Positions 12,629-26,750 of a DNA stretch of 64,000 bases are shown in pieces. The position numbers and the translations under genes were made by a program. The DNA lies in NCBI RefSeq assembly GCF_000153465.1, contig NZ_CH672387.1, positions 2,829,903-2,893,902 on the forward strand, given 5' to 3'. Numbering within the stretch: position 1 is the stretch's first letter; the number at the start of each line of letters is the position of its first letter. Source of the DNA: Aurantimonas manganoxydans SI85-9A1 (GTDB lineage Bacteria > Pseudomonadota > Alphaproteobacteria > Rhizobiales > Rhizobiaceae). A model generated the notes under the pieces. The model was given only the letters and a program-made list of their open reading frames with translations, was not told the DNA's origin and ran no database searches.

Positions 12629-14233
12629 ATGGAAGAATTCGACTATATCGTCGCCGGGGCCGGTTCGGCCGGATGCGTCCTCGCCAACCGGCTCTCCGCC
12701 AATCCGCGCAATCGCGTGCTGCTTCTGGAGGGGGGCGGCAAGGACAACTGGATCTGGTTCCACATCCCGGTCGGCTATCTCTTCGCCATCGGCAATCCGC
12801 GCTCGGACTGGATGTTCAAGACGTCGGCCCAGGCCGGGCTGAACGGGCGGGCCCTCTCCTATCCGCGCGGCAAGACCCTCGGCGGATCGTCCGCGATCAA
12901 CGCCATGATCTACATGCGCGGCCAGGCGGCGGACTACGACCATTGGCGCCAGCTCGGCCTCCAGGGCTGGGGCTGGGACGACGTCCTGCCGCTGTTCAAG
13001 GCGATCGAGGACCATGCCGACGGTCCGAGCGAGTATCACGGCGCGGGCGGCGAATGGCGCGTCGAGCATCCGCGCATCCGCTGGGAGATCCTCGACCGGG
13101 TCCGGGACGCGGCACATGCTGCGGGCGTGCCCAAGATCGACGACTTCAACACCGGCGACAACGAGGGCTCGGCCTATTTCCAGGTCAACCAGAAGGGCGG
13201 GCGGCGCTGGAGCGCGGCACGCGGCTTCCTGAAGCCGGTCCTGCACCGGCCGAACCTGAAGGTCGTGACCGGCGTGATGATCGACCGGGTCACCGTCAAG
13301 GACGGGCGCGCCGCCTCGCTGCAGTATCGCCGCGACGGCCAGACCTTCGAGGCGAAGGCGGCCGGCGAGATCGTGCTGTCGGCCGGCGCGGTCGGCACGC
13401 CGCTGATCCTCGAGCGGTCCGGCATCGGCGACACCGACCGCCTGCGTCCGCACGGCATCGCCCCGGTCCGGCATCTGCGGGGCGTCGGCGAGAACCTGCA
13501 GGACCATCTGCAGATCCGGCCGATCTACAAGGTCGACGGCATCAAGACGCTGAACAGCGAATACAAGAACCTCTTCCGCCGGGCGATGATGGGCGCCGAC
13601 TACGCGCTGCGCCGCCGCGGGCCGATGACCATGGCGCCCAGCCAGGTCGGGGCCTTCGTCAAGTCGCGACCGGACCGGGCGACCGCCGATCTGGAATTCC
13701 ACTTCCAGCCGCTTTCGCTCGACGACTGGGGCAAGGGCCTGCACCCGTTCTCGGCCTTCACCGCCAGTGTCTGCAATCTGCGCCCCACGAGCCGCGGCAG
13801 CGTTCATCTGACCGGCTCTCTGGTCGAGGACACGCCGGACATCTCGCCCAACTATCTCTCCACGGACGACGACCGACAGGTCGCGGTGGACAGCCTGAAA
13901 TGGGCCCGCCGGATTGTCGCCCAGTCGCCGCTCGCGCCTTACAAGCCGGAAGAATACAAGCCGGGTGCCCATGTGGTGTCGGACGATGACATGCTGGTCG
14001 CGGCAGGCGACCTCGGCACGACCATCTTCCATCCGGTCGGGACGGCGAAGATGGGCCCGGACGGCGATACCGACGCGGTGGTCGACGAACGGCTGCGGGT
14101 GCGCGGCATCGAAGGACTGCGCGTCGCCGACGCCTCGGTGATGCCGACCATCACCTCCGGCAACACCAACTCGCCGACGATCATGATAGCCGAAAAGGCC
14201 GCCCGGATGATCGTCGAGGATTCCCGCAACTGA
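12629..14233 (+). CDS. GMC-family FAD-dependent oxidoreductase (choline/alcohol dehydrogenase-like)
   Basis: 534 residues. The N-terminal FAD-binding Rossmann motif G-A-G-S-A-G is at about residues 10-15, followed by the GMC signature region (PRGKTLGGSSAINAMIYMRG) and the C-terminal active-site segments F-H-P-V-G-T-A-K-M-G and N-T-N-S-P-T. Such enzymes oxidise primary alcohols to aldehydes with FAD. Similarity in layout to choline dehydrogenase (BetA) is clear, but many paralogues act on other alcohols, and no betaine aldehyde dehydrogenase gene is adjacent. The ABC importer genes follow 120 bases later on the same strand and may belong to the same physiological unit. Confidence 0.88.
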   Translation: MEEFDYIVAGAGSAGCVLANRLSANPRNRVLLLEGGGKDNWIWFHIPVGYLFAIGNPRSDWMFKTSAQAGLNGRALSYPRGKTLGGSSAINAMIYMRGQAADYDHWRQLGLQGWGWDDVLPLFKAIEDHADGPSEYHGAGGEWRVEHPRIRWEILDRVRDAAHAAGVPKIDDFNTGDNEGSAYFQVNQKGGRRWSAARGFLKPVLHRPNLKVVTGVMIDRVTVKDGRAASLQYRRDGQTFEAKAAGEIVLSAGAVGTPLILERSGIGDTDRLRPHGIAPVRHLRGVGENLQDHLQIRPIYKVDGIKTLNSEYKNLFRRAMMGADYALRRRGPMTMAPSQVGAFVKSRPDRATADLEFHFQPLSLDDWGKGLHPFSAFTASVCNLRPTSRGSVHLTGSLVEDTPDISPNYLSTDDDRQVAVDSLKWARRIVAQSPLAPYKPEEYKPGAHVVSDDDMLVAAGDLGTTIFHPVGTAKMGPDGDTDAVVDERLRVRGIEGLRVADASVMPTITSGNTNSPTIMIAEKAARMIVEDSRN

Positions 14234-18323: not shown

Positions 18324-20003
18324 TCAGAACAGCCCCTCGACCTCGCCGTCGGCGTTCAGACGGATGGTCTCGGCAGCCGGTTTCGACGGCAGGCCCGGCA
18401 TGGTCATGATCTCCCCGCAGATGGCGACGACGAAGCCGGCGCCGGCGGACAGACGCACTTCGCGGACGTGGACGGTGTGGCCGTCCGGGGCGCCGCGCAG
18501 GGTCGGGTCGGTGGAGAAGGAATATTGCGTCTTGGCCATACAGACCGGCAGGTCGCCATAGCCGGCCTCCTCCCAGGCGGCGAGCTGGTCGCGCACGCTC
18601 TTGTCGGCGGTCGCCTCGGCGCCGCGATAGATGCGCTTGACCACCGTCTCGATCTTGTCGAACAGGCTCATCTTGTCCGGATAGAGCGGCGCGAATTGCG
18701 ACGCACCGCTGTCGGCCAGCGCAACGACCCGATGCGCCAGCTCCTCGATACCGGCCGAGCCGTCGGCCCAGTGACGACAGACGATGGCCTCCTCGCCGAG
18801 TTCCGCGACATAGGCCTTGATGGCCTCGATCTCGGCATCCGTGTCGGTGACGAAATGATTGATGGCCACGGTGGCGGGCACGCCGAACTGGCGGATGTTC
18901 TCGATATGCCGGCCCAGATTGGCGCAGCCGCGCGTCACCGCTTCGACATCCTCGGTCCCCAGCGCGTCCTTGGCGACGCCGCCATTCATCTTCAGCGCCC
19001 GGACGGTGGCGACGATCACGGTCGCGGCCGGCTTCAGCCCGGCCTTGCGACACTTGATGTCGAAGAACTTCTCGGCACCGAGATCGGCGCCGAAGCCGGC
19101 TTCGGTCACCACATAGTCGGCCAGTTTCAGCGCCGTCGTCGTGGCGACCACCGAATTGCAGCCATGGGCGATGTTGGCGAAGGGGCCGCCATGGACGAAG
19201 GCCGGGTTGTTCTCCAGCGTCTGCACGAGGTTGGGCTGCATGGCGTCCTTGAGGAGGACCGCCATGGCGCCGTCCGCCTTCAGGTCGCGCGCATAGACCG
19301 CGCTCTTGTCGCGGCGGTAGCCGACGATGATCGCGCCCAGGCGTTTTTCCAGATCAGCGAGGTCCTTGGCCAGGCACAGGATCGCCATGACCTCGGAGGC
19401 GACGGTGATGTCGAAGCCGGTCTCGCGCGGATACCCGTTGGCGACACCGCCGAGGGAGGCCACGATGCCGCGCAGCGCCCGGTCGTTCATGTCCATCACC
19501 CGACGCCAGGTCACGCGGCGGGTGTCGATCTCCAGGGCGTTACCCCAGTAGATGTGGTTGTCGATCATCGCCGACAGGAGATTGTGGGCCGTGGTGATGG
19601 CGTGGAAGTCGCCGGTGAAGTGGAGGTTCATGTCCTCCATCGGCACGATCTGCGCATAGCCGCCGCCGGCCGCACCGCCCTTCATGCCGAAATTGGGGCC
19701 GAGCGAGGCTTCGCGGATGCAGATCGCGGCGCGTTTGCCGATCCGGTTGAGGCCGTCGCCGAGGCCGACCGTGGTGGTGGTCTTGCCCTCGCCGGCCGGC
19801 GTCGGATTGATCGCGGTGACGAGGATCAGCTTGCCGTCCGGCCGATCCTGCAGCGACTTGATGAACGGGGCGGAGATCTTTGCCTTGTCGTGGCCGTAGG
19901 GGACGATGTCCTCTTCCGCGATGCCAAGCTTGGCTGCGATCTCGCGGATCGGCTTCTTCGCCGCGGCACGCGCAATGGCGATGTCGGTTTTGATCTCGGC
20001 CAA
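18324..20003 (-). CDS. fhs: formate--tetrahydrofolate ligase
   Basis: 559 residues, the standard length. It makes 10-formyl-tetrahydrofolate from formate, ATP and tetrahydrofolate, feeding one-carbon units to purines and formyl-methionine. Family hallmarks are the P-loop-like [12 protein letters not shown] (about 67-78) and the conserved N-terminal K-P-I and Y-G-H-D-K-A-K segments. Translation starts at TTG 20003, preceded by GGGAGAA at a good distance; no ATG or GTG fits. It appears monocistronic; the long upstream region contains a probable small RNA on the same strand. Confidence 0.95.
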
Positions 20004-20166
20004 GCCCGGTTCTCCCTGTCTGGTCTGCCTCGCAGGCGACCATAGGCAGCCTGATGCGCCAATGCCAATGCCTGCCCGCGTCAGGATTTCCTATCCCGCG
20101 ATAAGCCGCACTTGGTGCGGCGGCCGCGCTGGAAGCCGGCTGGCCATGGCGGATGCCGGAAGACCG
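20004..20166. other. intergenic region between fhs and the small RNA
   Basis: Part of a 657-base stretch without protein genes between fhs and choX. This portion holds the fhs ribosome site and presumably its promoter on the minus strand. I see no conserved open frame or recognised riboswitch in it. Confidence 0.4.
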
Positions 20167-20320
20167 AAACGGAAAGAGCCCGGGCGCAGGCGCACCGGGC
20201 TCTTCATTCCATGATCACGATGGGCGGCGTTGGGAGGAGGAACACCGCACTCGGATCGGTATCGCGGCTGTGGTGTCGAACGAGCCCGTCAACAGGGAGG
20301 ATGAAGTCGGGCTCCCCGTC
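20167..20320 (-). ncRNA. probable trans-acting small RNA with CCUCCUCCC anti-Shine-Dalgarno loops (alpha-r14 / cuckoo type)
   Basis: On the minus strand three hairpins follow in about 150 bases. Hairpin 1: GAGCCCG/CGGGCTC (20314-20308 with 20288-20282), loop containing TCCTCCC. Hairpin 2: GCGGTGTT/AACGCCGC (20248-20241 with 20231-20224), eight pairs with one G-U, enclosing a nine-base loop that is exactly CCTCCTCCC. Hairpin 3: a 10-bp GC-rich stem (20204-20195 with 20183-20174) followed by TTTCC, the likely terminator. Repeated anti-Shine-Dalgarno loops plus terminal terminator define the rhizobial alpha-r14 (NfeR1) family and the related CCUCCUCCC cuckoo RNAs, which pair with ribosome sites of transporter mRNAs. 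Ends are estimates; family assignment is from structure only. Confidence 0.75.
20174..20204 (-). terminator. terminator hairpin of the small RNA
   Basis: Ten-base-pair stem AAGAGCCCGG/CCGGGCTCTT with an 11-base loop. Read on the minus strand it ends CTCTTTCC, a short uridine tract; on the plus strand the tail is less U-rich, so the minus direction is preferred. Confidence 0.65.
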
Positions 20321-20660
20321 CGTCCAATACCGCAATAACCAGACTGTAACCCAAGTCGCCGCAAGACGCTGTCACTATTTTGCTACGGACCGTGCCAAAT
20401 TCGCACAGTTGATGCCCTGAGGAGACATACCCACCATTGCGGAAAATGCCCGAACGGCGTGTAGGCCGCCCCCCCGCATCCAGCCGGGAAAGCCCGGAAT
20501 TACCGGCTGTTCGAGGCGGTGCAAGGCGCTGTCATGGCCGACAATAAGTCCTGCGAACTGTTGCGTTCACAGGCTACCGCGGCAATAACAATCGCCATCA
20601 CATTCATGCAGCAGCGGGGCGTGCCAGCGTCCCCGGCCTGCCGATCAGGAGACGATTCCC
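20321..20660. other. intergenic region between the small RNA and choX
   Basis: This stretch should contain the small RNA promoter on the minus strand (a weak TTGGGT/GGTATT pair with GGTATT at 20331-20326 is the best I see) and the choX promoter on the plus strand. Short open frames here lack ribosome sites and protein-like composition. No riboswitch was recognised. Confidence 0.4.
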
Positions 20661-21608
20661 ATGAAGCTTTCCCGAATGTTCGCAGCCGCCATGCTCGGCA
20701 CCGCTTTCATCGGAACCCCGGCGCTCGCCCAGGAAGCGGAGTCCTGTTCGACGGTCCGCTTCTCCGATGTCGGCTGGACGGACATCACGGCGACGACCGC
20801 CGTCACGACGGAAATCCTCAAGGGCCTCGGCTACGACACCGACACCAAGGTCCTGTCGGTGCCGGTCACCTTCGCCTCCATGAAGAACGAGGACATCGAC
20901 GTCTTCCTCGGCAACTGGATGCCCTCCATGCAGGCCGATATCGCGCCTTATCTCGAGGACGGGTCGGTCGAGGACGTCAAGACCAACCTGACCGGCGCCA
21001 AATACACGCTGGCGGTGCCGCAGTACCTGTTCGACGAGGGGCTCAAGAGCTTCGCCGACATCGCCAAGTTCTCCGACCAGCTGGACGGCAAGATCTACGG
21101 CATCGAGCCGGGCAATGACGGCAACCGCCTGATCCTCGACATGATCGAGAAGGGCGCCTTCGATCTCGGCGACTTCGACATCGTGGAATCCTCCGAGCAG
21201 GGCATGCTCAGCCAGGTCGCCCGCGCCACCCGCTCCGAGGATGCGATCGTCTTCCTCGGCTGGGCACCGCATCCGATGAATAAGAACTTCGAGCTGCAGT
21301 ATCTGGCCGGCGGCGACGATTTCTTCGGCCCCGACTTCGGCGGCGCCACGGTCCACACCACCGTACGCAAGGGCTATCTCGAGGAGTGCCCGAATGTCGG
21401 CGCCCTGCTCTCCGACCTGACCTTCTCGCTGGAGATGGAGAACGCCGTGATGGGCGCGATCCTCGACGATGGCGAGAAGCCGGAAGCGGCGGCCCAGGCA
21501 TGGCTGAAGGCCAATCCCGACCAGATCGGCACCTGGCTGGAGGGCGTAAAGACCAAGGACGGCGAAGATGGCCTGCCGGCGGTCAAGGCCTATCTCGGTC
21601 TGTCGTAA
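20661..21608 (+). CDS. choX: choline ABC importer, periplasmic binding protein
   Basis: 315 residues with a Sec signal peptide ending near residue 24 (PALAQEAE) and the OpuAC/ChoX type fold. Aromatic residues typical of the quaternary-ammonium cage are present: D-V-G-W-T-D (Trp near 36), G-N-W-M-P-S and L-G-W-A-P-H-P-M. Two cysteines (C29 and one near 243) could form the disulfide seen in ChoX. AGGAGA precedes the ATG. choW and choV follow on the same strand. Together they import choline at high affinity for use as carbon and nitrogen source or as glycine betaine precursor. Confidence 0.92.
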   Translation: MKLSRMFAAAMLGTAFIGTPALAQEAESCSTVRFSDVGWTDITATTAVTTEILKGLGYDTDTKVLSVPVTFASMKNEDIDVFLGNWMPSMQADIAPYLEDGSVEDVKTNLTGAKYTLAVPQYLFDEGLKSFADIAKFSDQLDGKIYGIEPGNDGNRLILDMIEKGAFDLGDFDIVESSEQGMLSQVARATRSEDAIVFLGWAPHPMNKNFELQYLAGGDDFFGPDFGGATVHTTVRKGYLEECPNVGALLSDLTFSLEMENAVMGAILDDGEKPEAAAQAWLKANPDQIGTWLEGVKTKDGEDGLPAVKAYLGLS

Positions 21609-25808: not shown

Positions 25809-26750
25809 TCAGCTTCGCTTCATCTTCGGGTCCAGCGCATCGCGCAGGCCGTCGCCGACGAGGTTGATCGCGAGCACCGTGATCAGGATGGCGAGGCCCG
25901 GGAAGGTCACCACCCACCAGGCGCGCAGGATGAACTCGCGTGCCTCGGCCAGCATGGTGCCCCATTCGGGCGTCGGCGGCTGCGCGCCCATGCCGAGGAA
26001 GCCGAGCGCCGCGGCGTCGAGAATGGCGTTGGAGAAGGACAGGGTCGCCTGGACGATCAGAGGGCCAAGGCAATTGGGCAGGATCGTCACCAGCATCAGC
26101 CGCAGCGGCCCGGCGCCGACGACGCGGGCGGCGGTGACGTATTCGCGCTGCTTCTCGGCCATCACCGAGGCGCGCGTCAGGCGGACGAAATGCGGCTGCA
26201 GGACGAGCGAGATGGCGATCATCGCATTGGTCAGGCCCGGCCCGAGCACGGCCACGAGAACCAGCGCCAGCAGCAGCGAGGGAAAGGCGAGGATGATGTC
26301 CATCACCCGCATGATCACCGTGTCGACCCAGCCGCCGACATAGCCGGCGATCAGGCCAACGGCGATGCCGACACTCACCGCGATGACGACGACCACGACG
26401 CCGATGAACAGCGAATAGCGCGAGCCGTAGATCAGCCGCGAGAGGATATCGCGCCCGATCGCGTCGGTGCCGAGGAAATACGCCCACTGGCCGCCTTCCT
26501 GCCAGGCCGGCGGCAGCAGTTGCGCGTTGGAATTCGTCAGCACGGCCGAATGGGGCGCCAGCAGCGGAGCCGCCAGGGCGATGAACACGATCGTCAGGAA
26601 CACGGCGAGGCCGACCACCGCGCCCTTGTTCTCGGAGAAATAGAACCAGAACTCGGCCAGCATCTGCCGGCGCACACTCTTGGCCGGCTTGCGGTCCGGA
26701 ATGTCGGCGCCAACGCCTTCGGCGGCTTCCTGGGCTTCGATATGGCTCAT
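25809..26750 (-). CDS. dppC: dipeptide/oligopeptide ABC importer, permease (DppC)
   Basis: 313 residues with the N-terminal OppC_N region (FSENKGAVVGLAVFLTIVFIALAAPLLAPH) and a permease domain of five further helices; the EAA loop is REYVTAARVVGAGPLRLMLVTILPN. Pairs with DppB to form the channel. The gene starts ten bases after the dppB stop, consistent with one operon. Confidence 0.92.
   Translation of the reverse strand: MSHIEAQEAAEGVGADIPDRKPAKSVRRQMLAEFWFYFSENKGAVVGLAVFLTIVFIALAAPLLAPHSAVLTNSNAQLLPPAWQEGGQWAYFLGTDAIGRDILSRLIYGSRYSLFIGVVVVVIAVSVGIAVGLIAGYVGGWVDTVIMRVMDIILAFPSLLLALVLVAVLGPGLTNAMIAISLVLQPHFVRLTRASVMAEKQREYVTAARVVGAGPLRLMLVTILPNCLGPLIVQATLSFSNAILDAAALGFLGMGAQPPTPEWGTMLAEAREFILRAWWVVTFPGLAILITVLAINLVGDGLRDALDPKMKRS

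Follow-up and report, generated by a model that had tools for sequence, protein, structure and literature searches.

A putative conserved RNA gene with CCUCC-loop hairpins between fhs and choX in Aurantimonas manganoxydans

The window, a stretch of 64,000 nucleotides from Aurantimonas manganoxydans SI85-9A1, contains a predicted small RNA on the minus strand between two divergent genes. The next gene downstream of the RNA is fhs, encoding formate–tetrahydrofolate ligase (18324–20003, minus strand; NCBIfam NF010030, 929.8 bits, cut-off 652), and the divergent neighbour is choX, encoding a choline ABC transporter binding protein (20661–21608, plus strand; NCBIfam TIGR03414, 481.6 bits, cut-off 379.05). 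The RNA is placed at 20171–20341 (minus strand, about 165–171 nt) from its fold, from syntenic homologues in 14 other genomes and from the match to a covariance model built without it; the 3′ end is that of a terminator and the 5′ end is a probable position. Upstream of it, an alignment of 12 upstream regions reveals a conserved promoter-like block (20343–20375, minus strand), made up of GTGACAG (20375–20369) and GACTTGGGTTACAGT (20357–20343), to which two relatives (G030, G048) fit poorly. A strict sigma-70 scan gave no match in this block of the window. The sigma-70 promoter consensus of ar14 RNAs is CTTAGAC-N17-CTATAT according to excerpts of PMC10746234, and by eye the upstream block of one congener (G001) has the CTATAT and a weak −35. 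In another (G005, locus L190), an inverted repeat, ATTGCCGC...GCGGCAAT, spans the promoter-like block upstream of the first hairpin; it is absent in such form from the window and is possibly an operator.

The RNA is composed of three successive hairpins, all on the minus strand. The first (HP1, 20282–20314) has a seven-pair stem, GAGCCCG/CGGGCTC, enclosing ACTTCATCCTCCCTGTTGA, and is found in the sequence and in centroid folds with TCCTCCC in its loop (20301–20295). The second (HP2, 20224–20248) is likewise evident from sequence and folds, and its eight-pair stem, GCGGTGTT/AACGCCGC, which includes one G-U pair, closes exactly CCTCCTCCC as a nine-base loop (20240–20232). The third (HP3, 20174–20204) is a GC-rich hairpin of the intrinsic-terminator type, with TCC after the last paired T's and with a loop that lacks CCUCC in the window. 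These hairpins and the terminator are observed directly, and they bear out an earlier, sequence-only reading of 20167–20320, which had described an eight-pair stem with a perfect nine-base loop, an upstream hairpin exposing TCCTCCC and a third, GC-rich terminator hairpin. When the RNA was folded from five different 5′ ends, the HP1 loop was open from 20335 or 20341 and partly open from 20325. With the 5′ end at 20320, the start of the RNA pairs with the HP1 motif and sequesters the loop; a start at 20330 likewise brings the 5′ end into pairing with the motif in the minimum-energy fold. Since the loop is open only with longer 5′ ends, the right-hand coordinate of that reading (20320) is probably 15–20 bases too short.

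Comparisons with shuffled sequences and with the rest of the genome give a mixed picture of how readily such hairpins arise by chance. The stretch with the three hairpins has a folding energy of −70.8 kcal/mol; 200 dinucleotide shuffles gave −59.9 kcal/mol (sd 4.5), and one of them was as good. Taken alone, the HP1 stem was matched or beaten by 2 of 500 flank shuffles; for the HP2 stem, with its GC-rich flanks, the number was 89 of 500. When 27 loop-closing stems from the window and its orthologues were treated in the same manner, 14 beat at least 95% of 500 flank shuffles, several of the sequences being closely related, and 13 fell short of that mark. The nonamer CCTCCTCCC occurs at 42 sites in the genome compared with 54 for a reversed control pattern, which amounts to no enrichment. 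Among 32 of these 42 sites, the window site ranks seventh in hairpin closure (−12.7 kcal/mol); the six that are better closed are loops of the canonical ar14 array described below, and the next two after the window reach −10.9 kcal/mol. The lack of enrichment, and the ease with which flank shuffles reach HP2, are what could be expected if two chance CCTCC hairpins stood ahead of an ordinary terminator with no regulatory RNA involved, but this explanation is highly improbable in view of the return of CCTCC loops at one locus in 15 genomes, on stems that are mostly different.

That such loops return at a single syntenic position on differing stems is a direct observation. A CCUCC-hairpin RNA occupies the homologous spot, following putA and/or preceding fhs, in all eight genomes of the genus that were examined, and at the same spot in seven genomes of five genera outside it (G034, G030, G048, G027, G168, G211 and Jiella sp. 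LLJ827), a total of 15 genomes and six genera. Genome G237 was counted together with Jiella sp. LLJ827 because its RNA is unchanged and its putA is the same (100% over 480 residues). Conservation of the loops in related genomes, whose absence the sequence-only reading had said would speak against it, therefore holds. A DNA similarity search of 100 relatives returned matches in 11 genomes including A. manganoxydans itself, among them a 98% identical copy in G007; beyond these two (G000 and G007) the matches were short pieces, several of which were the terminator (including G001, G003 and G004). The orthologues of G002, G005 and G006 went undetected by this plain search and were revealed by synteny. 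Upstream of fhs, G001, G003 and G004 carry a pair of CCTCC hairpins plus a terminator, built on different stems; in G002, G005 and G006 the RNA comes directly after putA and carries CCTCCTCCC in both loops, and fhs is not at the spot. All three hairpins contain CCTCC in the orthologues of G048, Jiella and G211; in G027 the motif is missing from the middle hairpin, and in G168 from the first one.

Several of the more distant orthologues came from scans of fhs loci. Of 80 named fhs loci, four (L052, L080, L082, L114) had TCCTCCC in the 1500 bases upstream; L052, that of Jiella sp. LLJ827, was alone examined further and kept. It has the order putA, RNA with three CCTCC hairpins, fhs, and a sub-threshold match to the RcsR1 sRNA lies there downstream of fhs (L052:7678–7774, 28.6 bits, cut-off 60). 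Among named fhs proteins, those of this Jiella and of three Mesorhizobium are equally the closest, at 84%, and Jiella shares the putA-RNA-fhs order. From a further 40 fhs upstream stretches, 33 were scanned for CCTCC only and seven were folded; four of the latter were kept (L150, L153, L157 and L189, giving G034, G030, G027 and G048) and three rejected (L152, L162, L180). RNAalifold, applied to a MAFFT alignment of 13 sequences, recovered the HP3 terminator helix and a five-pair helix, and neither HP1 nor HP2, because the stems shift relative to the loops.

A covariance model (R1) was built from 11 syntenic RNAs, leaving out the window and its 98% identical sister G007. Over the genome of A. 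manganoxydans it places the window site first, at 71.3 bits (E 3.5e-15), with the next match at 24.9 bits. Over 247 family genomes, 60 gave matches with E ≤ 0.001 and 10 exceeded 50 bits; seven of these ten are training genomes (counting G237 with the Jiella RNA), and the other three are G000, G007 and G168. The search added the orthologues of G168 and G211. Nine of the 30 returned loci were inspected (L199, L206–L213): three (L199, L206, L208) are CCTCC RNAs linked to fhs, two (L209, L212) resemble canonical ar14 RNAs of other genomes, and L207, L210 and L213 were rejected. Part of the R1 score comes from the terminator, and the weak matches inspected are partly other terminators.

The neighbourhood of the RNA differs between relatives. 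The gene order is fhs, RNA, putA, choX in G001, G003 and G004 and RNA, putA, choX in G002, G005 and G006, placing putA between the RNA and choX in six of the eight genus genomes. The window and G007 are without this putA, the best match being a 53% relative elsewhere. They keep the promoter-like block and bases that align with the putA stop region: in the window, CGTAGCAAA (20379–20387, minus strand) aligns with the putA stop codon and following bases in relatives and is likely a trace of the lost gene, and tblastn of 20001–20700 found no significant putA remnant. The contact with choX is thus most likely a by-product of putA deletion, and the adjacency no longer argues for function. The proximity of choX had earlier been read as a functional hint, which is countered both by the intervening putA and by duplex energies between the HP1 and HP2 loops and 55 gene starts of the window (roughly called), in which the choX ribosome site is an average partner, ranking 23rd for the HP2 loop (−7.4 kcal/mol) and 21st for the HP1 loop (−8.4 kcal/mol). 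These energies point to fhs and to the genes with roughly called starts at 26750 (minus strand), 58121 (minus strand) and 22820 (plus strand) as better target candidates in the window than choX. The case is a warning against inferring targets from gene neighbours.

The same gene orders bear on whether the RNA could be derived from the 3′ UTR of putA and released by processing, persisting as a relic in the window, which lacks putA. The gene ends just before the RNA in six of the eight genus genomes and in G034, G027, G030, G048, G168 and Jiella/G237, and a putA 3′-UTR product is possible in these relatives. This leaves unexplained that the window and G007, without putA, retain the upstream block, both loops and the terminator; furthermore, in G211, where the RNA precedes fhs, the flank examined gave no match to putA. 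As a general account of the RNA, this origin is quite unlikely.

On the other side of the RNA, fhs could be governed by it in cis, with the RNA serving as a 5′ leader in which HP3, acting as an attenuator, controls read-through into the gene. The two are on the same strand, with some 170 bases in the window from the end of the terminator-like HP3 to fhs; several relatives likewise have the RNA ahead of fhs, and the fhs ribosome site is the best partner of the 55 for the HP1 loop (−16.0 kcal/mol) and the 11th for HP2. Against this, in G002, G005 and G006 the next gene after the RNA is an opposite-strand oxidoreductase, fhs has a promoter-like site of its own past the terminator, and no Rfam leader exceeds its cut-off in the window. 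That site, TTGGCA-N18-TATGGT (20039–20068, minus strand), was found by a sigma-70 scan, and in 6 of the 10 genomes compared TATGGT lies 38–44 bases ahead of fhs. Since the RNA persists without fhs and the promoter-like site lies past the terminator, a leader or attenuator is very unlikely. Persistence without either flanking gene is observed directly, fhs being away from the spot in G002, G005 and G006, and putA in the window and G007, where the upstream block is kept. The opposite-strand gene after the RNA in G002, G005 and G006 (L191, L190, L192) encodes a GMC oxidoreductase 84–86% identical to that of the window gene at 12629–14233, which is close to choline dehydrogenase but does not reach the cut-offs for betA and PRK02106. 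The window has fhs and an ABC transporter separating this gene from the RNA.

At gathering threshold, no Rfam family passes anywhere in the 64-kb window. A permissive search ranks ar14 (RF02344) first at the site, at 29.8 bits (E 0.0013) and below the cut-off of 58.8, whereas true ar14 copies elsewhere in the same genome score 74.0–87.1 bits. Other weak matches at the site (Bp2_287, sX9 and ar35) were rejected as chance or terminator likeness. The AbcR1/AbcR2-type family, which we take to be ar15 in Rfam, gave no match at gathering threshold in the window, nor at E up to 5 in 20000–20700. Searched over the whole genome, RF02344 finds three matches above cut-off, and the window site comes fourth as the best outside their tandem array. 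These canonical copies (L042–L044; 87.1, 74.5 and 74.0 bits) lie in tandem at C1:1667097–1667473, outside the window, behind a gene for a small protein that matches Pfam DUF1127 (57.1 bits, cut-off 23.3). Such an arrangement of DUF1127 and RNA is often found in alphaproteobacteria, according to excerpts of PMC10253847. The array is the CIN1-like cuckoo locus of the genome, and the window RNA is therefore not that locus. A weak ar14 match also occurs at L047 (G000:C1:1163189–1163270, 25.7 bits), where a long terminator-type hairpin holds CCTCC in its stem rather than its loop, and in G027 another ar14-like match (G027:C12:160673–160789, minus strand, 43.2 bits) lies about 8 kb downstream of fhs on the same contig.

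Among relatives, the orthologue of G048 scores 38.6 bits with the ar14 model. Over 60 genomes, the matches listed for RF02344 include the syntenic site of G000, G002, G005, G006, G007 and G027; that of G001, G003, G004, G030 and G034 is absent among the matches listed, under stricter filters. R1 and RF02344 thus each weakly reach the other's group, which fits kinship and is no proof of it, because both groups of RNAs end in similar terminators. From the comparative sequence evidence, we regard the locus as probably a real, conserved RNA gene that stands outside Rfam ar14 as defined.

The findings are best accounted for by a stand-alone, divergent small RNA gene that is ar14/cuckoo-like in the broad sense and acts in trans by blocking purine-rich ribosome sites, a reading we consider probable; its transcription, its start, its action in trans, its targets and its common descent with ar14 are what we infer. 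The RNA would be transcribed from its own promoter toward fhs and end at HP3, and HP1 and HP2 would present single-stranded CCUCC loops that mimic the anti-Shine-Dalgarno of 16S rRNA. Pairing of these loops with the purine-rich ribosome sites (GGGAG, GGAGGA) of several mRNAs would then block translation and favour mRNA decay. A narrower reading is that the RNA belongs to a separate, vertically inherited ar14/cuckoo branch tied to proline and one-carbon metabolism, which followed putA and fhs through gene loss and rearrangement and whose loops are partly co-adapted with the fhs ribosome site. When loops were paired with their own or swapped fhs ribosome sites, wider loops gave a matrix without a clear diagonal, and one narrower setting gave permutation p values of 0.009 (9 genomes) and 0.015 (7 genomes). 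Six of 32 settings reached p < 0.05, the effect disappearing with short or long flanks, and the upstream control did so in 0 of 8. This narrower reading is unlikely; if true, it would place one-carbon supply under locus-specific control, in addition to a general anti-Shine-Dalgarno activity.

The literature searched holds no description of the locus; the member lists of the founding cuckoo RNA work lay outside the search, and an earlier listing there is possible. Excerpts of PMC10746234 and PMC3927594, both on CCUCCUCCC small RNAs, make no mention of fhs, and those of PMC3927594 none of formate, tetrahydrofolate or Aurantimonas. Excerpts of PMC5107571, on Paracoccus small RNAs, name Aureimonas in a homologue table and contain neither CCUCC nor tetrahydrofolate, and no work joining small RNAs, Rhizobiales and the anti-Shine-Dalgarno was found that includes formate–tetrahydrofolate ligase. 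The results suggest that a conserved branch of anti-Shine-Dalgarno RNAs escapes detection at the Rfam ar14 cut-off, and that the usual array next to DUF1127 is accompanied by a second copy, fixed in synteny. With its loops retained and its stems turning over, the locus also offers a natural test of which parts of such an RNA matter.

Among known systems, AbcR1 and AbcR2 share with the probable trans-acting RNA the use of anti-Shine-Dalgarno motifs, which they apply to the control of nutrient uptake genes, as excerpts of PMC7143759 describe. The cuckoo RNAs CcsR1–4 of Rhodobacter, encoded with the DUF1127 protein CcaF1 at the CIN1 locus, are similar in having hairpins with CCUCCUCCC-type loops; the window RNA differs in being single rather than tandem and in having fhs and choX as neighbours, with no small DUF1127 gene adjoining it. 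The closest likeness is to ar14/NfeR1 (RF02344, with the SmelA075/SmelA099 models), a family with several copies per genome whose members consist of consecutive hairpins with hypervariable stems, CCUCC-type anti-Shine-Dalgarno loops and an end terminator. The sequence-only reading had assigned the RNA to this alpha-r14/cuckoo architecture. What stands of the assignment is an RNA that is conserved, has several hairpins with CCUCC loops and ends in a terminator; its stems diverge across orthologues as the loops stay, and it matches the model below threshold. The window RNA lacks the full set of three hairpins each with an unpaired CCUCCUCCC, having two motif loops, one a perfect nonamer and one TCCTCCC, none in the terminator and a score under the cut-off; in addition, it occupies a stable putA/fhs locus, whereas the three true ar14 copies of the genome lie elsewhere. 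Excerpts of PMC10746234 identify NfeR1 of Sinorhizobium meliloti as an ar14 RNA that silences mRNAs through CCUCC loops pairing with translation initiation regions, its three motifs acting redundantly, and silencing via such loops is also reported for ar14 RNAs in an excerpt of PMC3927594 (section 2.7). According to the same source, a 2011 survey of Rhizobiales met stems so diverged that the covariance model lost discriminatory power, and thermodynamic matchers were used instead. The window RNA fits this picture of ar14 RNAs with diverged stems and, by analogy, may share their mode of action.
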